Assembly (NCBI RefSeq): GCF_001655615.1
Contig: NZ_CP011567.1
Coordinates: forward strand, 3,109,001-3,173,000
Origin: Pseudomonas sp. GR 6-02
Lineage (GTDB): Bacteria > Pseudomonadota > Gammaproteobacteria > Pseudomonadales > Pseudomonadaceae
Direction: 5' to 3'
DNA: 64,000 bases
The notes beneath the pieces were generated by a model that made no database searches, was not told where the DNA came from, and saw nothing but the letters and a program-made list of their open reading frames with translations. Below are positions 4,696-18,787 of the stretch, piece by piece (position 1 is the first letter of the stretch; each line of letters begins with the position of its first letter). The translations under genes and the position numbers were made by a program.

Positions 4696-4711
4696 CTGTC
4701 AGATCTGACAG
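4696..4711. promoter_or_regulatory. lux-box-like palindrome upstream of 4785-5591
   Basis: CTGTCAGATCTGACAG is a perfect 16-bp palindrome with the CT-N12-AG form of LuxR-family (las/rhl-type) binding sites. It ends 73 bases before the ATG. A TTTAAT at 4735-4740 could be the -10. Nearly the same sequence precedes the genes at 11105 (minus) and 18871 (plus). No luxI or luxR gene is in the window, so the regulator is unknown. Confidence 0.65.
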
Positions 4712-4784
4712 TAGGCGAGATCGCGATTACTGCGTTTAATTTCTCCCGAAGCAAAGGGTTTTCAAGGCCTCTGGAGAACGGCGA

Positions 4785-5591
4785 ATGAGCACAACGACAC
4801 CCATCGGAATATTCGCCGCGCCATTAAGCATTGACGGTGTCGGTGCCGATAAGGTGCTTCCGCCGGACGCGCACCTCAATGGCGTGACACTGCGAATCCC
4901 CCCTTGGCTCGCACCTTCGCTCAAACCTGGCGAGAGTGATTTGCTGCAGATCTGGATTCGAGAGCCTGGGGCAACGTCCGACACTCGTTTTTACAACAAC
5001 CTTTTTCCCGTCCCGGTGGTGTTTCCGACCTCGATCCACTTGCCCTCGCAGTTCCTGCAACTGATAGGTGACATCACTCTGACCTACAAGGTGACGTCTG
5101 GAGATACCAAGAACGAGGATGACTCGCTGGCGCAGGTGTTCATCCTCAAACGCCCGGTCCCGGTCAACCTGAAGGAACCGGTCTTTCCCAACGCAACCTT
5201 GTGGGGTTACCTGAATTGCAGGACGTCTCCAGCGATCTGGGTGGTGGTCACTGTGCGTGTTCCGGCACAACCGGGGCGGTTCCTTGCAGGCGATGTGTGT
5301 GAACTGGGATGGGTAGGCTTCAGCAGCCTCAACGGCAGCGGTAACGCCATTCCAGGCACGGCGCTGAGCTTGCGCAAAACATTGACGCAGCAGGAAGCCG
5401 ATTCAGCGCTGGGCTTCGACTTCAGGCTCGAAAGCGACAAATACGAAAAACATATCAAGCCTATGGTCATCAACGCATCGGCACTCGCTCAGTACACGCT
5501 TTATCGAAAGGGTGTCGCTCTGGGTCGATCGGCCCCGGGCCTGGTAAAGATCGACCGGGGCGTATCGGGGAATCCACCTTGCGGCCCATAA
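4785..5591 (+). CDS. uncharacterised beta-rich protein with a GRS repeat unit
   Basis: 268 aa, no family recognised, no signal peptide and no membrane segment. The ATG has a GGAGAA ribosome site. The composition is beta-sandwich-like. A C-terminal unit of roughly 90 residues opens with GDVCELGWVG and closes with YTLYRKGVALGRSAP. That pattern (GD-x-hydrophobic ... Y-x-L-x-R-x-G ... GRS) recurs in the 753-aa protein at 18871-21132, so the two probably share an Ig-like repeat. A lux-box-like palindrome lies 73 bases upstream. The next gene starts 149 bases downstream on the same strand and is probably co-transcribed. Function unknown; the protein could be an effector, an adhesin-like protein or a carbohydrate binder. 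Confidence 0.75.
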   Translation: MSTTTPIGIFAAPLSIDGVGADKVLPPDAHLNGVTLRIPPWLAPSLKPGESDLLQIWIREPGATSDTRFYNNLFPVPVVFPTSIHLPSQFLQLIGDITLTYKVTSGDTKNEDDSLAQVFILKRPVPVNLKEPVFPNATLWGYLNCRTSPAIWVVVTVRVPAQPGRFLAGDVCELGWVGFSSLNGSGNAIPGTALSLRKTLTQQEADSALGFDFRLESDKYEKHIKPMVINASALAQYTLYRKGVALGRSAPGLVKIDRGVSGNPPCGP

Positions 5592-5740
5592 CTCAAGGAG
5601 TCTCAAGTTCAACCGTTGTAGAACACACAAACGCAAGAAAAACGTCAATCCCAGGGACATGCAGCCAGGAGTCGCGAGATTTTTCATTGGGACACAACGT
5701 TGATGGTTCAACGATTAATTCATCCATGGAGCATACAAAC

Positions 5741-7876
5741 ATGAATATGCAGGTTAAATCTGGCGGTGTCCTTGCCTTGCCTCCGACTATTGTCGGTGTG
5801 TTGCCTGATGGCCGAATTCCCTATCAACAACTGAAAGTCGACAGACGGGTCAAATTTCAATTGGCCGATGTCGATGACAAAACGCCTGAAGGCGCTCACA
5901 GAATCGAACTTCACGTGCACCCGAAAGGGGTCAAGCCCATAGAGTTCGACCCGACATGGGTGGTTTTGGAGTTGTTGAAAGCCAATCAGCCAGCGGCTGA
6001 CTGGACGTTTCCGATCGATTTTGACGTGACTGGAGCTGCACTCGATCGACTGGTCGACAGGTTTGATATGAACGGCGAATACGCGGAATACGGCGCGACA
6101 TTCATTATTTATGACGCCCACACCAACCCCGATATATCTGATCCACCTCTTGAGTTCAAAGTCGATCTGACCGCGCCTTACCAGCGCCAACCCGGTACGG
6201 GCAACGGCACCGGCACACGGCCTGTGTTGATCAGCCAGACTGGCTTGCCTACGAGGATTGACGACGCCTGGCTGGCGGATCCCGCCAACGCCGGCGGTCT
6301 CGATTTGCCCATTCCTACCGGCTATACAAAATTCGAAGCGTTAACCGATCGCGTCAGTATCTATGTTTCTACGCAAACAACATTTACAGGGATGCAGGGC
6401 GACGTCAACGGAGCCTCTGTCATCGATTTTCCGCTGCCGGTTGGCGGGGTCATCAACATTCCTCTGGCCGATCTGCAGGCGTTGAGGGATGGTTCGTACT
6501 TTTATTCCTATAACCTCAAGGATGCGCCAGGAAATATCAGCAACAACTCGGCCATCACGTTGCTGTTCAGTCGGGTAAGTGCCCCCGCCCCGGTACTGGG
6601 CGTGCCAAGGATCCCGGTCACCGGTCCTAATGGTCAAACGCCTATTACGCTTGGGACGTCAGCGTTTCCCACCAAAGCTGTAATGGAAGTCGATTTTCCG
6701 TTGAACGGGCTTCCCGGTGATCGGATCGTTCCAGAAGTCTTTGATTCGAATGGTGTTCCTTCACCGACAATCCCTGAACAACAAATTCCACCTGTCGGTA
6801 CACCGGGTCCACAGACACTGTTTTTCGACCTGGACGATGCGTTTTGGGCCGCTGTGTATGCGGACCCCAATCGCCAGGATGAGGAGCAGTTCACATACAG
6901 GTACAGATTGATTCGTCCTACGATTTCATCTGATCCGGTTTCGCAGCCGGAGCAATTCGGTATTCTCGATCGATCGTACGCCGGGCCTGAGCAACCGAAC
7001 CTGCCAGACCTGCTAAACCCCAACATTCAGCCGGTGGCGGTTCAGGGCGCAGGCACTCCGGTACCCGCCCCCAACACGCTTGGCACGGCACAGGCAGGCC
7101 TCGACGCCACCATGACCTGGCCTTTGTGGAGGGATCCAAACCGGCCGGTGACAGACCGTGAAATCGTGACGTTCTACTACCAGGGCAAGCAAGTGGGGAG
7201 CCCGGTGGGCGTGCGGGGTGACCAGCCGACGGTCACCACGACATTGCCTTGGGCCACGATCCTGGCCGAAGGCAACGGCAGTGGTGCAACGGCGCGAGAA
7301 GCCTACATCACCATCGGATACCCTGGCAGCGCGAACGTGATGACGCAGACGCCCGTGACCCCGGTCAACGTGACAGCCATCGTGATCAATCTGCCTGCGC
7401 CACAGATCATTGTTTCAGCCTTCAGAACAGCCACCGGGACCCTGGTGCCGGAGCGTGTCGCGACTTCCATCAACTGTCCAAGCATGGATCACCCGACTGT
7501 AGCGAACGGGCCGATGCCGCCTTACGCGGCGCGCAGCCTGCGGATCAGGATCCTGCGTGATCCCAATATCCCTACAGGCGCAATAGTGAACCTGGAATTT
7601 GAGGGCCGGGTCACCAACACGGCGGGTGGTGCTGCAATTCCCGGCACTCAGATCACGGATTCGAGGCCTATGCCAGCGACCGGAGTGCTGGAATTCAACC
7701 TGACGGACTACACCGCCATCAGGACGATCCAGCTGCCAAGCCCCGGCCCGGGTCAGCGACCTGCCACCCGTTTTGCGCGCATCGCGTATACGGTCAACGG
7801 AATCACTTCCGAGGTCATCGTCCCCGTGGCGCTCTTGAACTCGAGCCTGGTGTATTGCGAGCAGAACCGTCCTTGA
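5741..7876 (+). CDS. large uncharacterised protein with Ig-like repeats
   Basis: 711 aa from the ATG at 5741, chosen because a GGAG lies 9 bases upstream; an ATG at 5726 and an open frame back to 5579 are alternatives. No signal peptide, transmembrane segment or catalytic motif is visible. The sequence is rich in Pro, Thr, Val and Asn and looks like tandem beta-sandwich modules of about 100 residues with linkers such as NPNIQPVAVQGAGTPVPAPN. One module ends FTYRYRLIRPTISSDPVSQP, reminiscent of the Y-x-L-x-R ... S pattern in its neighbours. It follows 4785-5591 on the same strand and probably shares its lux-box-like promoter. Function and location are unknown. Confidence 0.75.
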   Translation: MNMQVKSGGVLALPPTIVGVLPDGRIPYQQLKVDRRVKFQLADVDDKTPEGAHRIELHVHPKGVKPIEFDPTWVVLELLKANQPAADWTFPIDFDVTGAALDRLVDRFDMNGEYAEYGATFIIYDAHTNPDISDPPLEFKVDLTAPYQRQPGTGNGTGTRPVLISQTGLPTRIDDAWLADPANAGGLDLPIPTGYTKFEALTDRVSIYVSTQTTFTGMQGDVNGASVIDFPLPVGGVINIPLADLQALRDGSYFYSYNLKDAPGNISNNSAITLLFSRVSAPAPVLGVPRIPVTGPNGQTPITLGTSAFPTKAVMEVDFPLNGLPGDRIVPEVFDSNGVPSPTIPEQQIPPVGTPGPQTLFFDLDDAFWAAVYADPNRQDEEQFTYRYRLIRPTISSDPVSQPEQFGILDRSYAGPEQPNLPDLLNPNIQPVAVQGAGTPVPAPNTLGTAQAGLDATMTWPLWRDPNRPVTDREIVTFYYQGKQVGSPVGVRGDQPTVTTTLPWATILAEGNGSGATAREAYITIGYPGSANVMTQTPVTPVNVTAIVINLPAPQIIVSAFRTATGTLVPERVATSINCPSMDHPTVANGPMPPYAARSLRIRILRDPNIPTGAIVNLEFEGRVTNTAGGAAIPGTQITDSRPMPATGVLEFNLTDYTAIRTIQLPSPGPGQRPATRFARIAYTVNGITSEVIVPVALLNSSLVYCEQNRP

Positions 7877-7911
7877 TAACGGATCAGCAGCGCTTCGAAT
7901 GAAACTTCCCA

Positions 7912-7945
7912 GGATAAGGGCGACAGCAATTGTCGTCCTCATCCG
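7912..7945 (+). terminator. possible imperfect hairpin after 5741-7876
   Basis: Arms around GGCGACA and TGTCGTCC, with flanking AGGAT and ATCC, can pair with mismatches. There is no T-run, so a Rho-independent terminator is not assured. The rest of 7877-8128 shows only a candidate promoter region for the autotransporter and no lux-box-like palindrome. Confidence 0.3.
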
Positions 7946-8128
7946 AGGAGGTGAAGTCAGATACGTACGAGCTTACGAATCAAGGGGATAAATCGTACAA
8001 AGACGGAGATTGATCCTACATATCCCCGGGAAAGTTATCCGTAGTCTGGCGACCGTTTTAGTCCGGCTCGCACACCGTTTGAGTCGGAAACTCGTTCCTG
8101 ATGGAATGCAATCGAGTAGGACTCAACT

Positions 8129-10576
8129 ATGTTGCCAAAGTCGCAATTTCCTTTTTTGAAAACATCGATCAGCTTCTGGGTGGCAACCCTGATGCCTCTT
8201 CTGATGAATTCATCGATGACTCAGGCTGCCACTGTTCCGGCGGGCACCACTCAAGCCATCGACGCCACGACACCCCTGCAAACCTGGCAGCTTCAAAGCA
8301 ACGCTACGTTGAACGCCACCAATGCCACAACACTGCAGATGACCAGTGCTGCTGGTGGTGTGTTCAACTTGACTGGCTCAAACGTCAGCGCCGCAACGGG
8401 TTCAGGTATTTCCCTGACCAACGCCAGCGCCAACCTGGACAACTCGAGCGTCAACAGTGCCACCGGCATCGGCATCTCTGCGATACGAAACGTCGCCAGC
8501 GTCGGTGGTTCGAATGTGACATTGCGCAATGGGTCTGTCGTTCGAGGTTTGCAAGGAGGTATCGCGGGCAACCGGTTCAGCGTCCTCAATCTGCGAAATT
8601 CCACTGTTGAAGGGACTGGCGCCACCAGTTTCGGGATTCGGATGCTGGAGGGTTCACTGTCGGCCACCGGAAGTACGATCACCGGCGGCCTCAATGGCGT
8701 GACGGTGGGCACCGACACGCAAGTATCGACTGTCATTCCAACCACCATCGTTCTGGACGCTACCCGTGTCGAAGGCAAGACAGGGTCGGCGTTAGTGGTC
8801 GGCATCAACGCGCCGAACTTTCCGACCGTGGCCAACATCGAAGTGCGTAATGGCTCGAGCCTGGTCTCAGGCAACAATACGTTGCTGGAAGTCAGGCGAG
8901 GCGCCTCGGCTGGTTTCCTTGTGGATAACAGCGCATTGACCGGTAATGTAACGGTGGCTTCCGGCAGTTCCGCCAACGTCACGCTGCAGAACAATGCATC
9001 GTTGACCGGGGACCTGCAAAACGTCACGACCGCCGTGTTAAATAATCAGGCACGTATGACCGGTAATGTGCTGGGTGCTTCAAGTGTCGCGCTTGATAAT
9101 GGTTCGACACTGAGCGGTAACCTGGACAATGTCGCCAGCGTGTCCATCAACAACCAGAGCATCATGACCGGCAACGTCAACGCTGCGACGGGCAGTGCTT
9201 CTGGCTTGACACTGGATAACGGGGCGAGCCTGACGGGGCAAGTGAACAACGTCGCCAATTTCGCCATCAGTAATCAGGCGCTCTGGCAGATGACCGGCAG
9301 CCAGTCGGTGAACAACCTGACACTCAGCAATGGCGGCGGAGTCCGATTAGGCACTAATCAGGAATATTTTCAACTGAACGTGGCCAACCTGGCGGGCAAC
9401 GGTACATTCAGGATGAGTACCGATTTCAACCAGGGCATCAGTGATTTGTTGAATATCACTGCAAGCGCTGCCGGCGATCATCAGTTGCTGGTTCGCAGTT
9501 CGGGTTTCGATCCGGTCAATGATGCTTCGATCAAGGTGGTGCAGAGCGTTGCTTCAAACGCGCAATACGGCCTCGTCAACAACCAGGTCGATGTCGGGGC
9601 GTTCACCTATAGACTGGTGAAGGACGGGAATGACTGGTACTTGCAACCCGACAAGGAAGTCGTCAGCACACCGACCCGCTCGATATTGGCGATTGCCGGC
9701 ACGACGCCTGCGGTGACCTACGGCGAAATGCCTCTATTGAACAACCGGATGGGCGATCTACGTGTCAATGGCGGGCAAACCGGCGGATGGGTCCGGTCTT
9801 TCGGCAGTCGGTACAGCATCGGCAACAATGCCTACGGGAACGGCTATAGCCAGCGCCAGTACGGGTTGTCAATGGGGGTCGATACCCCGGTGGAGATCGC
9901 GGGCGAGCGCGTGTTGCTGGGTGTGTTTGCCGGTTACAGCAAATCCGTTCTCGATCTGAGCCGTGGCAGCTCCGGTGAAATCGGCAGTACATCCCTCGGC
10001 GTTTATGGCACCTGGCTGGGTGATAGTGGCTATTACCTGGATACGGTGGCCAAGCTCAATCACTTCCGCAATGAAGCCAATGTGGCACTGAGCGATAACA
10101 CCAAAACCAAAGGCAACTACAACAATCTGGGCGCCAGTGCATCGGTCGAGTTCGGCAAGCGTATCGACTTCAAGGACGGCTATTACGCAGAGGTGTTCAC
10201 TCAATGGCAGGCAGCCTCCGTGCAAGGCAAGGACTTCAGTCTGGACAATGGCCTGAAGGTCGACGCCGACACCACACGTTCCGTGCTTGGCAAGGCGGGT
10301 GTAACGCTGGGACGTGGCATGACGCTGTCTGACGGCAGCGTCCTGCAACCTCATGTGCGTGTTGCTGGCGTTCATGAGTTCGTGAAGACCAATAAGGTGC
10401 GCGTCAATAACAATGAATTCGACAATAACTTGTCCGGCAATCAGTTGGAGGTTGCCGCCGGAGCATCCTGGACCCTCAATGATCGCTGGCAGCTACACGC
10501 GGAACTGGATACCAGCAAGGGCGATGGCGTTACCAAGGACTTTGGCGTGAACATGGGGGCGCATTACAAGTTCTGA
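8129..10576 (+). CDS. autotransporter (type Va) with beta-helical passenger
   Basis: 815 aa. The N-terminus has a hydrophobic signal segment (TSISFWVATLMPLLM) ending near TQA before ATVPAG. The passenger, to about residue 480, consists of short Asn/Ser/Thr-rich rungs typical of a right-handed beta-helix, with clear repeats such as ASLTGDLQNV, STLSGNLDNV and ASLTGQVNNV between about residues 270 and 400. The C-terminal ~260 residues (from GGWVRSFGSRYSIG) form the outer-membrane beta-barrel and end in Tyr-Lys-Phe; a terminal Phe is the usual outer-membrane sorting signal. No protease triad was seen, so it is probably a pertactin-like surface adhesin. The ATG has AGGA at 7 bases. Transcription ends at the hairpin at 10587-10614. 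Confidence 0.9.
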   Translation: MLPKSQFPFLKTSISFWVATLMPLLMNSSMTQAATVPAGTTQAIDATTPLQTWQLQSNATLNATNATTLQMTSAAGGVFNLTGSNVSAATGSGISLTNASANLDNSSVNSATGIGISAIRNVASVGGSNVTLRNGSVVRGLQGGIAGNRFSVLNLRNSTVEGTGATSFGIRMLEGSLSATGSTITGGLNGVTVGTDTQVSTVIPTTIVLDATRVEGKTGSALVVGINAPNFPTVANIEVRNGSSLVSGNNTLLEVRRGASAGFLVDNSALTGNVTVASGSSANVTLQNNASLTGDLQNVTTAVLNNQARMTGNVLGASSVALDNGSTLSGNLDNVASVSINNQSIMTGNVNAATGSASGLTLDNGASLTGQVNNVANFAISNQALWQMTGSQSVNNLTLSNGGGVRLGTNQEYFQLNVANLAGNGTFRMSTDFNQGISDLLNITASAAGDHQLLVRSSGFDPVNDASIKVVQSVASNAQYGLVNNQVDVGAFTYRLVKDGNDWYLQPDKEVVSTPTRSILAIAGTTPAVTYGEMPLLNNRMGDLRVNGGQTGGWVRSFGSRYSIGNNAYGNGYSQRQYGLSMGVDTPVEIAGERVLLGVFAGYSKSVLDLSRGSSGEIGSTSLGVYGTWLGDSGYYLDTVAKLNHFRNEANVALSDNTKTKGNYNNLGASASVEFGKRIDFKDGYYAEVFTQWQAASVQGKDFSLDNGLKVDADTTRSVLGKAGVTLGRGMTLSDGSVLQPHVRVAGVHEFVKTNKVRVNNNEFDNNLSGNQLEVAAGASWTLNDRWQLHAELDTSKGDGVTKDFGVNMGAHYKF

Positions 10577-10586
10577 CGCGAATGAA

Positions 10587-10614
10587 AAAGGGAAGCGCTG
10601 GCTTCCCTTTTTTT
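10587..10614 (+). terminator. Rho-independent terminator of the autotransporter
   Basis: A perfect stem AAAGGGAAGC / GCTTCCCTTT with loop GCTG, followed by a T-run. It sits 10 bases after the autotransporter stop. Confidence 0.92.
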
Positions 10615-10652
10615 GACTGTGTGTCCCGTCCTGAATAAGGTTTACACAGCGG

Positions 10653-11105
10653 TTAATATTTCAAAACTTGAAAATCACCATTGAGCTGAAATGTAGTTTC
10701 GTCGGCATTCTCTACGATTACCTTGAACCTGGCTTTGACGTTAGCGCTGTCGACAGCCGGTTCGATTTCGATTTCGCCTGAAATGGCTTCACTTACCACG
10801 GTGTCGTCTTTAAAGCTGAGTGCCACATCGGGACTGCTTTTGATCGCATGTTTGCCCACCGGGTAGTCCTTGGGGAGGATGATGATAATTTCACGTGCCG
10901 GATAGCTTTTGGCTTTAGTATTCGAAGCGGGTCGATCGATGGCCGTAATCTGTACGGCATCAAGTTGTTGAACGCCGACTTTTACCTGGTCTATCAGTCG
11001 GGAAGTGGCAATGAAATCCTCGATGGGTGTACCAGTGTTGGCGAAAGCCTTCGCAGTAACATAGTTACCTGGGGCAAAGCTGATTTGTTTGATTACAGCG
11101 TTCAT
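10653..11105 (-). CDS. small uncharacterised beta-rich protein
   Basis: 150 aa, start MNAVIKQISFAPGNYVTAK, with a GGAGA ribosome site 8 bases before the ATG. No signal peptide, membrane segment or recognised family. Alternating hydrophobic and polar stretches (REIIIILPKDY, GEIEIEPAVDSANVKARFKV) suggest an all-beta fold. It stands alone, convergent with the autotransporter, and has its own lux-box-like palindrome 95 bases upstream. That site matches those before 4785 and 18871, which argues that it belongs to the same regulon. Function unknown. Confidence 0.75.
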   Translation of the reverse strand: MNAVIKQISFAPGNYVTAKAFANTGTPIEDFIATSRLIDQVKVGVQQLDAVQITAIDRPASNTKAKSYPAREIIIILPKDYPVGKHAIKSSPDVALSFKDDTVVSEAISGEIEIEPAVDSANVKARFKVIVENADETTFQLNGDFQVLKY

Positions 11106-11200
11106 GAATAGGATCTCCGTTCACTAAAAGGAAGTATCCAAAGGCCGTCCGACCCTAACTCTGGATGCACCATGGAAGCGTTTTCCTGACGGGTTGTAAA

Positions 11201-11216
11201 CTGTCAAACCTGACAG
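11201..11216. promoter_or_regulatory. lux-box-like palindrome upstream of 10653-11105
   Basis: On the minus strand the site reads CTGTCAGGTTTGACAG, a CT-N12-AG palindrome that differs from the site at 4696-4711 only in the central bases. The flanks AAC before it and T after it also resemble that site. A further TGACAG at 11224-11229 (minus strand) adds a second inverted half-site. Confidence 0.6.
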
Positions 11217-11305
11217 GTTACAGCTGTCAAAATCTGTGAATGGATGGCCTCAGCATGCAGGCACAAAACGCTGGTATCCAGGCTGAACAGAGCAGGGGGC
11301 GGTCG

Positions 11306-11947
11306 TCAGCTGAACAAACCGGCGGCAATGTTGATGGAAAACCCCAATATCGCCGTGTTGAACACAAACCCGATCAACGATTGCGCTAGCACGATCTTGC
11401 GCAATTCCCGCGTGGCGACGCCGACATCCGCGGTCTGCACCGCCACGCCGATGGTGAACGAGAAGTACAGGAAGTCCCAGTAATTGGGGGTTGTCAGCCC
11501 TTCGGCAAATCGCAGCGCAGGTTCCTTGCCTTCCCAGGTGTAATACAACCGGGCGTAATGCACGCTGAAGATCACCCCGATCAACAGCCACGAGCCGATC
11601 ACGGTCATCCCGGTAAAGCCGTAGTGCAACAGCCGGTGATAGGTGTCCAGATCTTTGCTGCCTGCTAGTTGGAGGGTGATGGCGGCGAGGCTGGCCAGTG
11701 CAGCCATGCTCACGGTGAACAGCACCAGCCCGGCGTTTTCGTCCTCGACTTCGGCGATGCGTTTCACGTCGTCGGCTTTGGAACGCATGGTCAGCCAGAT
11801 GATCAGGGCCAGATACGTCCAGACCCCGGCATTCCAGCCGATGAGGATTTTGCCGAGGATCGAGTCGGCCGGAGCCAGAATGCCTGCCGCGACGCCAAGG
11901 GTGGCGGCGGCGGACAGGCGAGGGTGGGTGCGGGCGAGGAAGGGCAT
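11306..11947 (-). CDS. DUF1345 integral membrane protein
   Basis: 213 aa with about five hydrophobic segments. The ending, with [17 protein letters not shown] and the [20 protein letters not shown] stretch, is characteristic of the DUF1345 family of predicted bacterial membrane proteins of unknown function. The ATG at 11947 lacks a strong ribosome site. It lies downstream of the RND pump genes on the same strand, but a REP-like inverted pair at 12003-12099 separates them, so it is probably an independent unit. Confidence 0.85.
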
Positions 11948-12002
11948 GGAGACTCACTTTGATGGTGCGTTCCAGCACCATAGCGCACGCGACGTCGCTT
12001 TT

Positions 12003-12099
12003 GTAGGAGCTGCCGAAGGCTCGGGCCGCGTTCGGACGGTCTTTTGATCTTGATCTTTAAAAGCAAAGTCAAAAGATCGCAGCCTGCGGCAGCTCCTAC
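12003..12099. repeat. inverted repeat (family 2, GTAGGAGCTGCCG type)
   Basis: The arm GTAGGAGCTGCCGAAGGC is mirrored by GCCTGCGGCAGCTCCTAC, with inner arms around TTTTGATCT / AAAAGATC. It lies between the RND pump gene stop and DUF1345. Related copies are at 27622-27682, 41635-41660 (single arm) and 52629-52713. Confidence 0.85.
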
Positions 12100-12107
12100 A
12101 GGTGGAG

Positions 12108-15100
12108 TCAGTGGGGTTTGGCGGATTTGCGCACCCACTTCATCACCACCACAAAAAACACCGGTACAAACACCACCGCCAATGTCGCCGTGATCATCCC
12201 GCCGATCACCCCGGTGCCGATCGCCTGCTGGCTTGCGGAACTGGCCCCGGTAGCAATCGCCAACGGCACCACCCCAAGAATGAACGCCAGCGATGTCATC
12301 ACAATCGGCCGCAACCGCAGGCGCGCCGCTTGCAGCGTGGCATCGATCAGGTCATGACCTTCGTCATACAGGCTTTTGGCGAACTCGATGATCAGGATTG
12401 CGTTCTTCGCCGACAGGCCAATGATGGTGATCAGCCCGACCTTGAAGAACACGTCATTGGGCATCCCGCGCAGGGTCACAGCCAGGACCGCGCCGAGCAC
12501 ACCCAGCGGCACCACCAGCAGCACCGAGGTCGGAATCGACCAACTCTCATACAGCGCCGCCAGGCACAGGAACACGATCAGCAGCGACAGACCGAGCAGC
12601 ATCGGCGCCTGACTACCGGACAAGCGTTCCTGCAACGACAACCCGGTCCATTCCTGGCCCAACCCCGCCGGGCCTTGCGCCACCAGCCGTTCGATTTCCG
12701 CCATGGCTTCGCCAGTACTGTAACCGGGCGCCGGTTCACCGGAAATGCTGATGGCCGGGTAGCCGTTGTATCGGGTCAACTGCGCCGGGCCCTGGGTCCA
12801 GTTGGCCCGGACGAAGGCCGACAGTGGCACCATTTTTTCAGCGTTGTTGCGTACGTGAATCTTCAGCAGATCGGCGACCTGGCTGCGTTGATCGCCTTCG
12901 GCCTGGACCACCACTCGCTGCATTCGCCCCTGGTTGGGGAAGTCGTTGATGTAAGCCGAACCCACAGCGGTGGACAGTACGTTGCCGATGTCGGCAAAGG
13001 AGATGCCCAAGGCGTTGGCTTGCTTGCGGTCCACGATCAGCTGAACCTGTGGCGCTTCGGCCAGGGCACTTTCGCGCACGTTCATCAGGATCGGGCTCTT
13101 CTCGGCGGCCGCCAGCAACTGGCTACGCGCCTGCATCAGCGTGGCATGGCCGAGGCCGCCACGGTCCTGCAAGCGGAACTCGAAACCGCTGGAGGTGCCG
13201 AGACCGTCAACCGGCGGCGGCAGCACCGAGAAAGCCATGGCATCCTTGATCTGGCTCAGCGCGATGTTGGCGCGATCGGCGATGGAACTCGCCGAGTCGT
13301 CGCTGCCCCGATCCGACCAGTCCTTGAGCGTGGTGAACGCCAGCGCAGCGTTCTGCCCGCTACCGGAAAAACTGAAGCCGAGAATCACTGTGCTGTCGCC
13401 GACGCCCGGTTCGGTGGCGTTGTGTGCTTCGATCTGCTCCACCACATTTATTGTGCGATTCTTGCTCGCGCCCGGTGGCAGTTGGATGTCGGTGATGGTG
13501 TAGCCCTGGTCTTCCACCGGCAGGAACGAGGAGGGCAGACGACTGAAACACAGTCCCAGGCCGACTAGCAGCACGCCATAAATCAACAGGTAACGACCGG
13601 TGCGTTTCAACGCATAGGCGACCCAGCCCTGATAACGCTCGGTCAGTTGTTCGAAGCGCCGGTTGAACCAGCCAAAGAATCCGGCTTTTTCGTGATGCTC
13701 GCCTTTGGCAATCGGCTTCAACAGCGTCGCACACAACGCCGGGGTCAACGTCAGGGCGAGGAACGCCGAGAACAGGATCGACGTGGCCATCGACAGCGAG
13801 AACTGTTGGTAAATCACCCCGACCGAGCCCTGCATGAACGCCATCGGAATGAACACCGCCACCAGCACCAGGGTGATGCCGATGATCGCGCCGGTGATCT
13901 GCTTCATCGCCTTGCGCGTGGCTTCCTTGGGCGACAGGCCTTCGGTGGCCATGATTCGTTCGACGTTCTCCACCACCACAATCGCGTCGTCCACCAGAAT
14001 GCCGATGGCCAGCACCATGCCGAACATGGTCAACACGTTGATCGAGAAGCCCAGCGCGAGCATGGTCGCAAACGTGCCCATCAACGCCACCGGCACCACC
14101 AGCGTCGGGATCAGCGTGTAGCGGATGTTCTGCAGGAACAGGAACATCACCGCAAACACCAGCACCATCGCCTCGCCGAGGGTGTAAACCACTTTGGTGA
14201 TCGAGACCTTGACGAAGGGTGAGGTGTCGTACGGGATCTTGTATTCGACACCGGCCGGGAAATAGCGCGCCAGTTCGTCCATCTTTGCTCGCACCAGCGT
14301 TGCGGTGCTCAGGGCATTGGCGCCCGGCGACAGTTGCACACTGACGGCGGTAGACGGTTTGCCGTTCAGGCGTGTGGAGAACTGATATTCCTGGCTGCCG
14401 ATCTCGACCCGCGCCACATCACGGATGCGCACGGTAGAACCGTCAGGATTGGCCTTGAGCACGATGTCGGCGAATTCCTCAGGCGTCGACAGCTGGCCTT
14501 TGACCAGAACGGTCGCGGTGATTTCCTGAGTGGTGCGGGTCGGCAAGTCGCCGATGCTGCCCGCGGAAACCTGAGCGTTCTGCGCAACGATGGCGGCGTT
14601 GACGTCAGCCGGGGTCAGGTTGAAGCCGATCAGCTTCTGCGGGTCGATCCAGATCCGCATCGCCCGTTCGGCGCCGTACAACTGGGCCTTGCCGACGCCG
14701 TCCAGACGCTTGATCTCGTTCATCACGTTGCGCGCCAGGTAATCGCTGAGCGCCACGTCATCGAGCTTGCCGTCGCTGGAGGTGAGGGTGATCAGCAACA
14801 GGAAACCGGCGGAGACTTTCTCCACCTGCAAACCTTGCTGGGTGACCGCCTGAGGCAGGCGCGACTCAACCGCTTTGAGGCGGTTTTGCACATCGACCTG
14901 GGCCATTTCCGGATTGGTGCCCGGCTGGAACGTCGCGGTGATGGTGGCGCTGCCGAGGCTGCTCTGGGATTCGAAGTACAGCAGATGGTCGGCGCCGTTG
15001 AGTTCTCCTTCGATCAGGCTGACCACGCTTTCGTCCACGGTCTGCGCCGAAGCGCCGGGGTAGGTGGCGTAGATTTCGACTTTCGGCGGCGCAACGTTCG

Positions 15101-15206
15101 GGTATTGCGCCACGGGTAACTGCCCAATGGCCAACGCACCGGCCAGCAGGATGAACAAGGCAACCACCCAGGCGAACACCGGGCGATCGATAAAGAACTG
15201 CGGCAT
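12108..15206 (-). CDS. RND multidrug efflux inner-membrane pump, MexD-like
   Basis: 1032 aa, a full-length HAE1-type RND transporter: start MPQFFIDRPVFAWVVALFI, twelve membrane helices, two large periplasmic loops, and the proton-relay motif GILVDDAIVVVENVER in helix 4 at about residues 400-415. Family knowledge says such pumps export drugs, solvents or detergents from the periplasm and inner leaflet using proton influx. The N-terminal third resembles MexD more than MexB or MexF. The adaptor gene lies 14 bases upstream on the same strand. No outer-membrane channel gene is adjacent, so a channel such as OprM or TolC encoded elsewhere must be used. Confidence 0.93.
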   Translation of the reverse strand: MPQFFIDRPVFAWVVALFILLAGALAIGQLPVAQYPNVAPPKVEIYATYPGASAQTVDESVVSLIEGELNGADHLLYFESQSSLGSATITATFQPGTNPEMAQVDVQNRLKAVESRLPQAVTQQGLQVEKVSAGFLLLITLTSSDGKLDDVALSDYLARNVMNEIKRLDGVGKAQLYGAERAMRIWIDPQKLIGFNLTPADVNAAIVAQNAQVSAGSIGDLPTRTTQEITATVLVKGQLSTPEEFADIVLKANPDGSTVRIRDVARVEIGSQEYQFSTRLNGKPSTAVSVQLSPGANALSTATLVRAKMDELARYFPAGVEYKIPYDTSPFVKVSITKVVYTLGEAMVLVFAVMFLFLQNIRYTLIPTLVVPVALMGTFATMLALGFSINVLTMFGMVLAIGILVDDAIVVVENVERIMATEGLSPKEATRKAMKQITGAIIGITLVLVAVFIPMAFMQGSVGVIYQQFSLSMATSILFSAFLALTLTPALCATLLKPIAKGEHHEKAGFFGWFNRRFEQLTERYQGWVAYALKRTGRYLLIYGVLLVGLGLCFSRLPSSFLPVEDQGYTITDIQLPPGASKNRTINVVEQIEAHNATEPGVGDSTVILGFSFSGSGQNAALAFTTLKDWSDRGSDDSASSIADRANIALSQIKDAMAFSVLPPPVDGLGTSSGFEFRLQDRGGLGHATLMQARSQLLAAAEKSPILMNVRESALAEAPQVQLIVDRKQANALGISFADIGNVLSTAVGSAYINDFPNQGRMQRVVVQAEGDQRSQVADLLKIHVRNNAEKMVPLSAFVRANWTQGPAQLTRYNGYPAISISGEPAPGYSTGEAMAEIERLVAQGPAGLGQEWTGLSLQERLSGSQAPMLLGLSLLIVFLCLAALYESWSIPTSVLLVVPLGVLGAVLAVTLRGMPNDVFFKVGLITIIGLSAKNAILIIEFAKSLYDEGHDLIDATLQAARLRLRPIVMTSLAFILGVVPLAIATGASSASQQAIGTGVIGGMITATLAVVFVPVFFVVVMKWVRKSAKPH

Positions 15207-15220
15207 AAAAAGCGTCCTGC

Positions 15221-16378
15221 TTACTGACCAGAAACCTGGGCAAGTGGAAGAGGGGTGTTGTCGATCTGGACTTTCTCACCGGGGCGCGCGTGTTGCAGGC
15301 CTTCAGTGACGATGCGGTCACCGGGCTTGAGGCCGCGGGTGACGATCCAGCGATCGTTCTGCACCGGGCCCAGCTCTACCGGTTGCTGGCCGACCCGCTG
15401 TTCGGCGTCGAGCAATAGCACTTGGGCGACACCGGCGCTGTCACGCTGAATGGCCCGTTGCGGCACGCTGATGCCTTGCTGATTGAACGCTTGCTCCAGA
15501 CGTACGCGAACGAAGCTGCCCGGCAGCAAGTCGAGGTCCGGGTTGGGGAACTCGCTGCGCAGAATGATCTGACCGGTGCCCGGGTCGACGGTGATGTCGG
15601 TGAACAACAACTTGCCGGGCAACGGATAAAGGCTGCCGTCGTCCTGGATCAGCGTGGCTTTGGCCTGGCCTTGGCCCACTTCCTTTAACTGGCCAGAGCG
15701 GAAGGCCCGGCGCAGATCGTTGAGTTCACGGGTCGATTGGGTCAGGTCGGCGTGGATCGGGTTCAACTGCTGAATCAGCGCCAGCGGCGTGGTTTCGTTC
15801 TGCCCCACCAGCGCGCCTTCAGTCACCAGCGCGCGGCCGATGCGCCCGGAAATCGGCGCGGTGACGGTGGCATAACCGAGGTTCAATTTCGCCCGCTCCA
15901 CCGCGGCTTTGTTGGCGGCGACATCGGCGGCGGTCTGCCGGGCATTGGCTCGGGCATTGTCGTAATCCTGAGCGCTGATGGCGTTGCCTTCGATCAATTG
16001 GGCGTAACGCTGCTCCTGCAATCTGGCCTGGAACGCGTTGGCTTCGGCCTTGCGCTGCGCGGCTTCGGCGCTGTCCAGGTCGGCCTTGAAGGGGGCCGGG
16101 TCGATACGGAACAGAACGTCGCCTTTATTCACGTCGCTGCCTTCGCGGAAGACCCGCTGTAACACCACGCCGGCAACCCGGGCACGCACTTCGGCAATCC
16201 GTGGCGCGGCAATCCGCCCGCTCAAGTCGCTGCTGATTGACAGAGGACGAGCTTCGACGGTTTCGATGCGCACCGTGGCCAGCGGTGCCGATTCTTCGGC
16301 GGTCGAAGACTGGTCACAAGCGCTCAGCGTCAACGCCAGGGCAATCAGGCTGAGCGTGGCAAGCAGGTTCTTTGACAT
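15221..16378 (-). CDS. RND efflux periplasmic adaptor lipoprotein, MexC-like
   Basis: 385 aa membrane fusion protein. The N-terminal signal ends in the lipobox LTLSAC, so Cys21 should be lipidated and the protein anchored to the inner membrane. A biotinyl-lipoyl-like hairpin domain (VLFRIDPAPFKADLDSAEAA and the later ATVTAPISGRIGRALV) and a beta-barrel follow. It precedes the RND pump by 14 bases in one operon. The divergent two-component system at 16630 probably regulates it, because the shared intergenic region is only ~250 bases and contains a REP pair. Confidence 0.92.
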   Translation of the reverse strand: MSKNLLATLSLIALALTLSACDQSSTAEESAPLATVRIETVEARPLSISSDLSGRIAAPRIAEVRARVAGVVLQRVFREGSDVNKGDVLFRIDPAPFKADLDSAEAAQRKAEANAFQARLQEQRYAQLIEGNAISAQDYDNARANARQTAADVAANKAAVERAKLNLGYATVTAPISGRIGRALVTEGALVGQNETTPLALIQQLNPIHADLTQSTRELNDLRRAFRSGQLKEVGQGQAKATLIQDDGSLYPLPGKLLFTDITVDPGTGQIILRSEFPNPDLDLLPGSFVRVRLEQAFNQQGISVPQRAIQRDSAGVAQVLLLDAEQRVGQQPVELGPVQNDRWIVTRGLKPGDRIVTEGLQHARPGEKVQIDNTPLPLAQVSGQ

Positions 16379-16533
16379 GGAAATACCCCAATAATGACTA
16401 CCCGCATCCTACGGGGAGTCGATGAGGGTAGCGGTGAAGCTTTGTTGGTGCTGTGTGAAATTGTGTAAGGGTTTTGCTCGCGTATGCGTGAGGGCGTATA
16501 TCCTTCGCAGCTTGAAACTTTTTGCGACGGTCA

Positions 16534-16595
16534 GGCCGCCTTCGCGGGCAAGCCTCGCTCCTACAGTAGGAGCGAGGCTTGCCCGCGAAGAGGCC
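16534..16595. repeat. REP inverted pair (family 1) between the efflux operon and the response regulator
   Basis: Arms GCCTTCGCGGGCAAGCCTCG and the complement CGAGGCTTGCCCGCGAAG meet almost without a loop (CTACAGTAG). It is the tightest of the seven family-1 pairs in the window and lies in the divergent promoter region. Confidence 0.9.
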
Positions 16596-16629
16596 CTGAA
16601 GTTCGCCACAGCACTTTCTGGAAACACCC

Positions 16630-17331
16630 ATGCCCAACATCCTCCTGGTCGAAGACGACACCGCGCTCTCGGAACTGATTGCCAGCTACCTGGAACGCAA
16701 CGGTTATTCCGTCAGCGTGATCAGCCGCGGCGATCATGTACGCGAACGCGCGCGGGTCAGTCCGCCGGACCTGGTGATTCTCGATCTGATGTTGCCGGGG
16801 CTCGACGGCTTGCAGGTCTGCCGCTTGCTGCGGGCGGATTCGGCGACGTTGCCGATCCTGATGCTCACCGCCCGTGACGACAGTCACGATCAGGTGCTGG
16901 GCCTGGAAATGGGCGCAGACGACTACGTCACCAAACCCTGCGAGCCCCGTGTGTTGCTGGCCCGCGTACGCACGCTGTTGCGTCGCAGCAGCCTCAGCGA
17001 ACCGCAGACCGCTAATGACCGTATTCTCATGGGCAACCTGTGCATCGACCTGTCCGAGCGCACTGTGACCTGGCGCGGGCAACTGGTCGAGCTGTCCAGC
17101 GGCGAATACAACTTGCTGGTGGTGCTGGCCCGGCATGCCGGCGAGGTGCTGAGCCGTGACCAAATTCTGCAACGCCTGCGCGGTATCGAATTCAACGGTA
17201 CCGACCGCTCGGTGGATGTGGCCATCTCCAAACTGCGGCGCAAGTTCGACGACCACGCCGGCGAGGCGCGCAAGATCAAGACCGTGTGGGGCAAGGGCTA
17301 CCTGTTCAGCCGCTCCGAGTGGGAATGCTGA
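16630..17331 (+). CDS. OmpR-family response regulator, RstA-like
   Basis: 233 aa. The receiver domain (residues 1-115) has the acidic pocket VEDD, phosphoacceptor Asp52 (VILDLMLPG) and the conserved Lys in YVTKPCEP. The winged-helix output domain (about 135-228) ends with IKTVWGKGYLFS. The sensor kinase starts 3 bases after its stop. Sequence and arrangement resemble the RstA/RstB pair. Divergent placement from a MexCD-like pump suggests, but does not prove, that it controls the pump. Confidence 0.9.
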   Translation: MPNILLVEDDTALSELIASYLERNGYSVSVISRGDHVRERARVSPPDLVILDLMLPGLDGLQVCRLLRADSATLPILMLTARDDSHDQVLGLEMGADDYVTKPCEPRVLLARVRTLLRRSSLSEPQTANDRILMGNLCIDLSERTVTWRGQLVELSSGEYNLLVVLARHAGEVLSRDQILQRLRGIEFNGTDRSVDVAISKLRRKFDDHAGEARKIKTVWGKGYLFSRSEWEC

Positions 17332-17334
17332 ACC

Positions 17335-18636
17335 ATGTTCAGAATCCTGTTTCGTCTGTACCTGGTGACCATCGTTTCGTTCAGCGCGGCGATCTACCTG
17401 GTGCCGGACCTGGTGATCAAGGTCTTCCATGAGCGTTTTGTGACCTACAACCTCGATTACTCCCGAGGTTTGCAAACGCTGATCGTCAAACAGTTTCGTA
17501 CGGTGCCTGTCGAGCAGTGGCCGGCGCTGGCGGCGGAGATGGACAAGGAGTTCCAGCCGCTGCACATCATTTTGGCCCGCAATGACGATGCCGAATTTAC
17601 CCTGGATGAGCGCGAACGCTTGCAGCGCGGGGAGAACGTGGTACGCATCGGCGACTGGGGCTGGCGCACCCTGGCGGTGACACCATTGAACGAGCAGATG
17701 GTGGTGGAGATGGTCGTGCCACCGGACCCCACGGATGTCAGTTGGTTGTACTGGAGCATCAACGTGCTGATCGGTGCGACGATGCTGGCCTGCCTGTTGT
17801 TGTGGCTGCGCCCGCACTGGCGCGACCTGGAACGTCTCAAAAGCACCGCCGAACGCTTCGGCAAGGGCCATTTGAGCGAGCGCACGCAGATTTCCCCCAG
17901 CTCCAACATCGGCAGCCTGGCCAACGTGTTCGACACCATGGCCGGCGACATCGAAAACCTGCTCAACCAGCAGCGCGACTTGCTCAACGCCGTGTCCCAC
18001 GAATTGCGCACGCCGTTGACGCGGCTGGATTTCGGCCTGGCCCTGGCGCTGTCCGACGACTTGCCGGCCACCAGCCGGGAACGCCTGCAAGGCCTGGTCG
18101 CGCACATTCGCGAACTGGATGAGCTGGTGCTGGAGCTGCTGTCCTACAGCCGATTGCAAAACCCGGCTCGGCTGCCGGATCAGGTCGAGGTGTCGCTGGA
18201 TGAATTCATCGACAGTATTTTGGGCAGCGTCGATGAAGAGCTTGAGTCACCGGAAATCGTCATTGATGTGCTGCTGCACGGTCAGCTCGAACGCTTCTCG
18301 CTGGATCCGAGATTGACCGCCCGGGCGATCCAGAACCTGCTGCGCAACGCCATGCGCTATTGCGAGAAACGGATTCAGATTGGTGTGCAGGTGTGCGCCA
18401 AAGGCTGTGAGATCTGGGTGGATGACGATGGCATTGGCATTCCCGATGAAGAGCGGGAGCGGATCTTTGAGCCGTTCTATCGGCTGGATCGCAGTCGGGA
18501 TCGCGCCACAGGCGGGTTTGGCCTGGGGCTGGCAATCAGCCGCCGAGCACTGGAAGCGCAGGGCGGCACGCTGACCGCGCAGGCATCACCATTGGGCGGC
18601 GCACGGTTCCGTTTGTGGCTGCCCACCTCGGCCTGA
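17335..18636 (+). CDS. sensor histidine kinase, RstB-like
   Basis: 433 aa, the same length as E. coli RstB. A membrane helix near the N-terminus and a second at about residues 140-160 (NVLIGATMLACLLLWLRPHW) enclose a periplasmic sensor region. HAMP, dimerisation and ATPase domains follow. The phosphoacceptor is His222 in AVSHELRTPLTRL; the ATP-binding boxes are NLLRNAMRY, DDDGIGIP and GGFGLGLAI. RLRPHW-type and MAGDIENLL motifs match RstB. It forms a two-gene operon with the response regulator. Confidence 0.9.
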   Translation: MFRILFRLYLVTIVSFSAAIYLVPDLVIKVFHERFVTYNLDYSRGLQTLIVKQFRTVPVEQWPALAAEMDKEFQPLHIILARNDDAEFTLDERERLQRGENVVRIGDWGWRTLAVTPLNEQMVVEMVVPPDPTDVSWLYWSINVLIGATMLACLLLWLRPHWRDLERLKSTAERFGKGHLSERTQISPSSNIGSLANVFDTMAGDIENLLNQQRDLLNAVSHELRTPLTRLDFGLALALSDDLPATSRERLQGLVAHIRELDELVLELLSYSRLQNPARLPDQVEVSLDEFIDSILGSVDEELESPEIVIDVLLHGQLERFSLDPRLTARAIQNLLRNAMRYCEKRIQIGVQVCAKGCEIWVDDDGIGIPDEERERIFEPFYRLDRSRDRATGGFGLGLAISRRALEAQGGTLTAQASPLGGARFRLWLPTSA

Positions 18637-18644
18637 CGCATTCG

Positions 18645-18700
18645 TTGTAGCAGCTGCCGAGCCTGCGAGGCTGCGTTCGAGTGCGCAGCACTCGTAGAAC
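18645..18700. repeat. single-arm repeat (family 3, GTAGCAGCTGCCGAGC type)
   Basis: The arm TTGTAGCAGCTGCCGAGCCT is followed by a small internal hairpin GAGTGCGCAGCACTC just after the kinase stop. The paired form of this family appears at 21315-21460 and 47062-47206. Here the second arm is missing. Confidence 0.75.
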
Positions 18701-18771
18701 CAGCCTAATTGGTACGGCAGAAAGACTGCCGAAGCTCCAGCTGACAGACGGTAGCGATAATCAGTCCCTAC

Positions 18772-18787
18772 CTGTCAGATATGACAG
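18772..18787. promoter_or_regulatory. lux-box-like palindrome upstream of 18871-21132
   Basis: CTGTCAGATATGACAG differs by one base from the perfect palindrome at 4696-4711, and the flanks (ACC before, TAG after) also match. A TATAAA at 18817-18822 could serve as the -10. The site ends 83 bases before the ATG. Confidence 0.65.

Follow-up and report, generated by a model that had tools for sequence, protein, structure and literature searches.

Three 16-bp palindromes in a 64,000-nucleotide stretch of the Pseudomonas sp. GR 6-02 genome (contig NZ_CP011567.1, positions 3,109,001 to 3,173,000; here the window, in which positions are counted from its first letter) are probably operators of PpoR, a LuxR solo encoded elsewhere in the genome, which would act on them as a class II activator of promoter-plus-gene modules. 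Among candidate regulators, PpoR is very probably the one that uses these sites, judging from comparison of related genomes. We computed the sites, their layout and how they co-occur with ppoR or its DNA-binding domain, and from these we infer binding, activation, ligand and purpose.

All three palindromes match CTGTCA-N4-TGACAG exactly and show the CT-N12-AG dyad of a lux box. Site 1 lies at 4696-4711 on the plus strand (CTGTCAGATCTGACAG), site 2 at 11201-11216 on the minus strand (CTGTCAGGTTTGACAG) and site 3 at 18772-18787 on the plus strand (CTGTCAGATATGACAG). A preliminary description of the window had given these places and letters correctly, and its distance of 73-95 bases to uncharacterised genes also holds: the spacers are 73 bases for site 1 (ATG at 4785), 95 bases for site 2 (ATG at 11105, minus strand) and 83 bases for site 3 (ATG at 18871), or 59 bases for site 3 if an upstream GTG is the start. 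With up to two mismatches allowed, the window contains 6 matches (the three places, counted on both strands) against 1.25 expected, a number reached in 1 of 100 shuffles. The whole 6.5-Mb genome holds 7 exact sites and none of the reversed control pattern, and with up to one mismatch 26 sites against 10 for the control. A chance origin of the palindromes was rejected on these shuffles and genome counts. The motif is not scattered at random across the genome and inside genes, an outcome that the preliminary description had named as fatal to its proposal.

The sites stand at a set distance from a promoter-like element. We took the surroundings of 63 sites, those of the window, the remaining exact ones of this genome and others from genomes G105, G047, G037, G085 and G057 and the loci L033 and L034, and oriented 55 of them toward a likely gene (the eight dropped were three from G057, a genome of a distant clade, one second site of the same gene and four lacking a convincing gene start). 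The oriented sites share a polar promoter, CTGTCAnnTCTGACAG, followed mostly by TAG and then by a degenerate -10 element. The right flank reads TAG in 28 and GTG in 10 of the 55, and the core is also skewed, with 28 of 43 asymmetric cores ending in TC versus 7 beginning with GA (8 do neither; p 0.0005). A T occupies offset +28 in 47 of the 55 (p 7e-21), preceded by A/T-rich positions +23 to +27. If this T is read as the last T of the -10 element, the centre of the palindrome falls near -43, which would be the class II position of LuxR-type activators, over the -35 region, and agrees with the placement of about -42.5 expected of a lux box. At site 1 the palindrome is followed by TAG and then, at offsets +23 to +28, by the predicted -10 element TTTAAT (4735-4740, plus strand) with its T at +28; at site 2 the layout predicts TTCCAT (11172-11177, minus strand) as the -10 element.

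The same layout separates the sites of this genome. We inspected 14 of its 19 one-mismatch sites, and seven of them precede likely genes while the remaining seven did not look promoter-like. The T at +28 is present in 12 of the 14 gene-linked sites (7 exact and 7 one-mismatch) versus 0 of the 7 others (Fisher p 0.0003), which bears out a split that had been made before the layout was examined. The preliminary description had spoken of a small regulon; a regulon is supported, its smallness is not, as the 14 gene-linked sites here share a similar promoter layout and relatives carry up to 35 exact ones. Core letters differ between genomes among the places listed: G105, G047 and this genome mostly have cores such as GATC, ACTC or GAGT, while TTTC or GAAA is usual in G037, G079 and G085. 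Some sites also occur in pairs 72-130 bases apart (L199:3078-3165, L217:3052-3197 and L222:3102-3243), at least in L199 and L217 between divergent open reading frames, as if one region drove two promoters.

The only good Autoind_bind gene of the genome (PF03472 match of 83.6 bits, C1:5593908) is ppoR, at C1:5593854-5594561, outside the window and between fpr and rlmG. Its product matches QscR, RhlR, SdiA and LasR over both domains, with the PF03472 domain and LuxR helix-turn-helix (HTH) of subgroup A of the LuxR solos, and the flanking ferredoxin-NADP reductase and 23S rRNA methyltransferase genes are likewise those of the subgroup. The fpr-rlmG locus is the described site of PpoR and the subgroup A solos (PMC8546723, PMC10134790; papers with PMC numbers are cited throughout from excerpts). 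The names fpr and rlmG rest on our reading of the sequence and on PMC8546723, and the neighbours were traced in 119 genomes. By sequence the closest solved relative of PpoR is QscR (PDB 3szt), with E 2e-39 over nearly the whole length. PpoR has W57, Y61, D70, P71, W85 and G113, all six residues that contact the acyl-homoserine lactone (AHL), by positions that we take from TraR numbering, and so has the pocket of subgroup A. Each of these residues is kept in 52-54 of the 54 PpoR sequences read from the site-using clade described below.

A luxI profile found no match in this genome, although the same profile finds luxI in 23 of the 119 genomes of the genus; 44 of the 57 clade genomes with ppoR also lack a luxI match. 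The genome thus has no cognate luxI, as is typical of subgroup A, and a canonical LuxI/LuxR pair with an AHL synthase of its own was rejected. Because PpoR keeps the AHL-holding residues in a genome without a luxI match, activation probably follows the AHLs of neighbours, and PpoR is likely to sense foreign AHLs. The preliminary description had left open a quorum-sensing or a LuxR-solo regulon. Its LuxR solo is supported by the comparative evidence; strict quorum sensing is not, because of the missing luxI match, and eavesdropping or another ligand is likelier. The description was right that no luxI or luxR gene lies in the window, as both Autoind_bind matches of the genome lie outside it; the LuxR-family gene that it advised seeking elsewhere is probably ppoR. 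The second of the two matches, a weak one of 27 bits, is a LuxR-type gene at L023:5196-5861 (C1:2788414) that adjoins apparent short-chain dehydrogenase genes; the 11 kb around it contain no site with up to two mismatches.

PpoR and the sites are linked by their joint distribution. In 119 Pseudomonas genomes we counted 850 exact sites versus 14 matches of the control pattern, with 0 to 35 sites per genome. All 119 genomes have rlmG; the stretch upstream of it was taken from each and classed by the state of ppoR, and a tree was built from RlmG plus Fpr. The sites belong mainly to one clade of 72 genomes (support 0.954), in which the 57 genomes with ppoR carry 1-35 sites (median 13), at least 3 of them in 55 of the 57. 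Four clade genomes, G061, G071, G073 and G092, have no ppoR, with only 181-248 bases between fpr and rlmG, and each has 0 sites. On the tree G061, G071 and G073 form a group (support 0.995) apart from G092, which is sister to 39 others (group support 0.965), so that ppoR was lost twice. When all 28 genomes without ppoR at the locus are taken together, these four included, they have 0-2 sites, and 20 of them have 0. A residue of the recognition helix, the one before TV, also goes with site number: of 63 genomes with R, 54 have more than 3 sites, and of 25 with S, 21 have at most 3 (88 of 91 sequences read), a correlation that we take as a hint. Neither of two attempts to follow site decay in ppoR-less genomes showed decay either way: the DUF2780 neighbour proved to be only a flank, and the thioredoxin-like gene is absent from the four ppoR-deleted genomes and also from G039, G029, G094 and G066.

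The strongest test comes from a lineage with a shortened PpoR, which indicates which part of the protein the sites follow. Eight genomes with 3-10 sites (G018, G020, G022, G050, G056, G068, G085 and G115) gave no PpoR match at E 1e-20; at lower stringency all eight matched residues ~169-175 to 236 only, that is, the HTH domain, with 54-61% identity, and in all eight this piece lies between fpr and rlmG. Altogether 11 genomes have such an HTH-only ppoR, and the tree groups them as one lineage (support 1.0). The median dN/dS of the gene is 0.10 (26 usable of 55 pairs), which indicates that it is under purifying selection. Sites are retained (1-10) in 10 of the 11 genomes. Since the HTH-only genomes keep sites and the ppoR-deleted genomes have 0, the sites stay with the DNA-binding domain and go with the whole gene. 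If these short proteins are regulators, they must act without a ligand of the sensor domain.

We propose that a PpoR dimer binds CTGTCA-N4-TGACAG at the -35 position, with its centre at about -43, and that bound PpoR would recruit RNA polymerase to the -10 element that follows 23-28 bases further on, as in class II activation. Its targets would be promoter-plus-gene modules at varied loci that encode large beta-rich, RHS/Tc-type, lectin, ubiquitin-like, SET, autotransporter, cold-shock and other small proteins. The trigger would probably be AHLs released by neighbours, and the purpose may be to deal with competitors or eukaryotic hosts. In its fullest form, which we hold tentatively and at somewhat under an even chance, the proposal is that a PpoR regulon of movable modules, with 1-35 exact sites per genome in the clade, equips the cell, when foreign AHLs are sensed, with Tc/RHS-type proteins and with eukaryote-like ones (ubiquitin, SET, ricin-B, Ig), that one lineage now controls these promoters with an HTH-only PpoR that is blind to signals, and that sites vanish where ppoR is deleted.

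Several observations weigh against this interpretation. The co-occurrence of ppoR and sites partly reflects shared ancestry. Outside the clade, 23 genomes have a distant PpoR (27-44% identity), and 15 of these have 0 sites, five have 1, and 2, 3 and 6 sites occur once each. This genome and three others have S in the recognition helix, yet many sites. Three of the 57 clade genomes keep sites although their ppoR frames are broken in the assembly (G088 at L095, 5 sites; G074 at L102, 30; G090 at L123, 9); the breaks may be recent losses or sequence errors. The HTH-only gene of G094 is intact, yet this genome has 0 sites, and in the same lineage G116 and G106 have 1 and 2. In the promoters, a strict count of TATAAT-like sequences at the -10 position was not significant (8 seen versus 5.1 expected; reached in 147 of 1000 shuffles), from which we take the element to be degenerate; the claim of a -10 element rests on the column count and not on the strict test. 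The T at +28 is missing at site 3, where TATAAA lies further downstream, and at one gene-linked one-mismatch site of this genome. Among 22 further sites oriented by the longest open reading frame only (23 sites from L040 and L044-L064, less the distant-clade site in L056), the T at +28 is on the chosen side in 14.

Published expression data are a further point on the same side. Overexpression of PpoR in P. putida altered sulfur, ribosome and amino-acid genes, and the excerpted tables (one biological sample, KT2440 gene names) name none of the site-linked families (PMC2703642). In the printed part of the table of differentially expressed genes of a PplR mutant, a response regulator is present and no RHS, beta-rich or cold-shock gene (PMC11543582). 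For Ppu16R, of the same subgroup, direct evidence of targets or of AHL binding is lacking in the excerpts of PMC8546723. This silence either counts against the model or reflects a missing AHL, strain content or conditions.

The sites could also be bound by another regulator whose gains and losses coincide with those of ppoR, so that PpoR merely rides along. Presence and absence alone cannot separate two linked genes, the pattern partly follows the ancestry of the one clade that uses the site, and the genes named in published PpoR data are others. We nevertheless regard such a companion as improbable: 11 genomes keep the DNA-binding domain at the locus without the ligand domain and 10 of them keep sites, the two nested ppoR losses both go with 0 sites, and the CT-N12-AG form and placement at ~-43 are typical of LuxR-type boxes. 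The notion that the palindrome is a non-regulatory recombination or cassette-border sequence, spreading with accessory genes, draws on the module-like appearance of site and gene, as in the DUF2780 neighbourhood of this genome, G005 and G047. It accounts poorly for the fixed distance to a T/A-rich, -10-like element, the polarity toward the gene, the usual single site per gene instead of a pair of borders and the link to ppoR, and we consider it very unlikely. The SOS box of LexA has the form CTGT-N8-ACAG, which the outer CTGT and ACAG of the palindrome, with 8 bases between them, would fit. LexA is to our knowledge present throughout the genus Pseudomonas, yet none of the 28 ppoR-less genomes has more than 2 sites and 20 of them have 0, and no repair family passed the cut-off among 50 proteins scanned behind or beside sites (no search for LexA or its known sites was made). 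ppoR-independent sites before SOS genes were not found, and LexA, which we had rejected on this ground, is hardly credible as the binding protein.

A different matter is whether PpoR, as the owner of the operator, needs an AHL at all. It may instead work by growth phase or through another ligand, a possibility that we take seriously but consider unlikely. Expression of ppoR depends on growth phase (PMC2703642), Ppu16R is soluble without AHL (PMC8546723), and the HTH-only versions cannot bind a ligand. Against this stand the conserved AHL-contact residues described above, both here and in the clade, and the AHL binding reported for PpoR (PMC2703642) and, in published assays, for PplR.

The proposed PpoR system has parts in common with known ones. 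PpoR of P. putida and subgroup A has the same fpr-ppoR-rlmG locus, two-domain LuxR architecture, AHL-contact residues and lack of a cognate luxI (PMC2703642, PMC8546723), whereas the genes in its published microarray differ from the regulon proposed here (PMC2703642); the excerpts of the two papers describe no PpoR operator. QscR of P. aeruginosa is likewise an orphan AHL receptor, but it answers AHLs made by its own cell (PMC8546723), in contrast to what is likely for PpoR here. The 11 truncated PpoRs resemble GerE-type regulators (PDB 1fse) in having a lone LuxR-type HTH, and differ from them in that this domain lies at the ppoR locus, with the operator still in place. Boxes of the las/rhl type, such as CTGCCAGTTCTGGCAG, are promoter-proximal 16-bp dyads of the form CT-N12-AG like the sites here, with C/G at the fourth and thirteenth positions where the present sites have T/A. 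A literature text search found none of six forms of the site, and among the matches listed for LuxR or LuxR solos with Tc, RHS or lux-box there was no such regulon; most subscription papers were beyond the reach of these searches. As far as they show, the kind of operator is known, while a regulon of modules that spans a clade and has a set promoter geometry is new, and so is a variant of its regulator that lacks the sensor.

Among the LuxR solos of fluorescent pseudomonads, subgroup A receptors are described as the most widespread (PMC8546723). Knowledge of PpoR dates back to 2009, with no operator given in the excerpts of PMC2703642 and PMC8546723, and a 16-bp operator would make its targets testable. 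With its set promoter geometry, such an operator allows target lists to be computed for any genome and offers a ready reporter. It would link listening to neighbours with large uncharacterised beta-rich and toxin-like proteins, and the HTH-only PpoRs would be naturally occurring variants in which the role of the sensor domain can be tested.

Behind site 1 lies a gene for a 268-aa protein of a beta-rich, site-associated cluster (4785-5591, plus strand), followed by one for a 711-aa protein (5741-7876, plus strand) that probably shares its operon; in Pseudomonas sp. RIT288 (L034) the two correspond to parts of one 1039-aa protein behind a site. Site 2 precedes a 150-aa protein of unknown family (10653-11105, minus strand) and site 3 a 753-aa protein of the beta-rich cluster (18871-21132, plus strand). 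None of the four has a Pfam or NCBIfam match to E 0.1, so that the preliminary description of them as uncharacterised stands. Its further suggestion of beta-rich proteins is borne out for the 150-aa protein, whose fold model (mean pLDDT 81) contains ten strands but not one helix, a predicted all-beta structure. This protein had 22 protein-database matches, the best of which (97%) is probably the window's own protein, and in L033 and L034 a counterpart of site 2, CTGTCAACTCTGACAG, is found at the same place before proteins with 52-53% identity. The 268-aa protein had 43 matches, all from Pseudomonas where the organism was shown. Some distant relatives of the 753-aa protein are named BIG2 or Ig-like domain protein. 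A PDB search with the 268-aa profile came back empty, and the matches of the 753-aa protein were no better than chance.

Outside the window, this genome has four exact sites, which precede genes for a protein with a SET domain (C1:950475), an RHS protein that ends in a YwqJ deaminase (C1:4273459), a 905-aa relative of the protein at 18871 (C1:4840790) and a cold-shock protein (C1:5907067). The seven gene-linked one-mismatch sites precede another RHS protein, a 1082-aa member of the beta-rich cluster, a response regulator and thioredoxin-like, YncE-like, lipoprotein-like and 120-aa proteins, names that come partly from BLAST and partly from sequence reading. In an all-versus-all BLAST of 62 site-linked proteins, 16 of 116 to 1082 aa fell into one loose cluster. 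The proteins at 4785, 5741 and 18871 are among them, with those at 4785/5741 joined to the one at 18871 via relatives and not directly; the 150-aa protein is outside.

A Pfam scan of 50 proteins behind or beside sites left 24 without a family at E 0.01. The families found were RHS (2), TcB-type SpvB/TcdB (1), TcA-type VRP1 (2), SET (2), cold-shock (2), bacterial Ig (2 over the cut-off, 1 below), thioredoxin (2), ubiquitin (1), ricin-B lectin (1), autotransporter (1), EF-hand (1), response regulator (1) and DUF5122 beta-propeller (1); a few matches, to T2SSE ATPase, histidine kinase and DUF2780, probably come from neighbouring genes that lie across the site. The ubiquitin domain (PF00240, E 3e-16) belongs to a 154-aa bacterial protein behind a site in G105 (L195:3351-3812).

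Some of these genes keep their site in other genomes. The SET protein and the response regulator have it in G105 too, and the thioredoxin-like protein at all eight loci (this genome, G105 and six more), at ~66-70 bases in five and ~590-630 in three. The three loci with the long distance, L250, L251 and L252, look as if another gene intervened. Beside the DUF2780 gene, this genome and G005 have a site together with a cold-shock gene, and G047 has one together with a DUF3757-like gene. Among 15 genomes searched, an exact site lies in the DUF2780 stretch in G005 only; G039 has a two-mismatch site there and an exact site elsewhere in the locus. These comparisons indicate that site-plus-gene modules move.

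Two other gene groups lie among the window sites. An 815-aa autotransporter (PF03797, PF03212) is encoded at 8129-10576 on the plus strand, between sites 1 and 2, with no site of up to two mismatches near its start. Directly upstream of site 3, at 12108-18636, the open reading frames read as an RND efflux pump and membrane-fusion protein, divergent from a two-component system.

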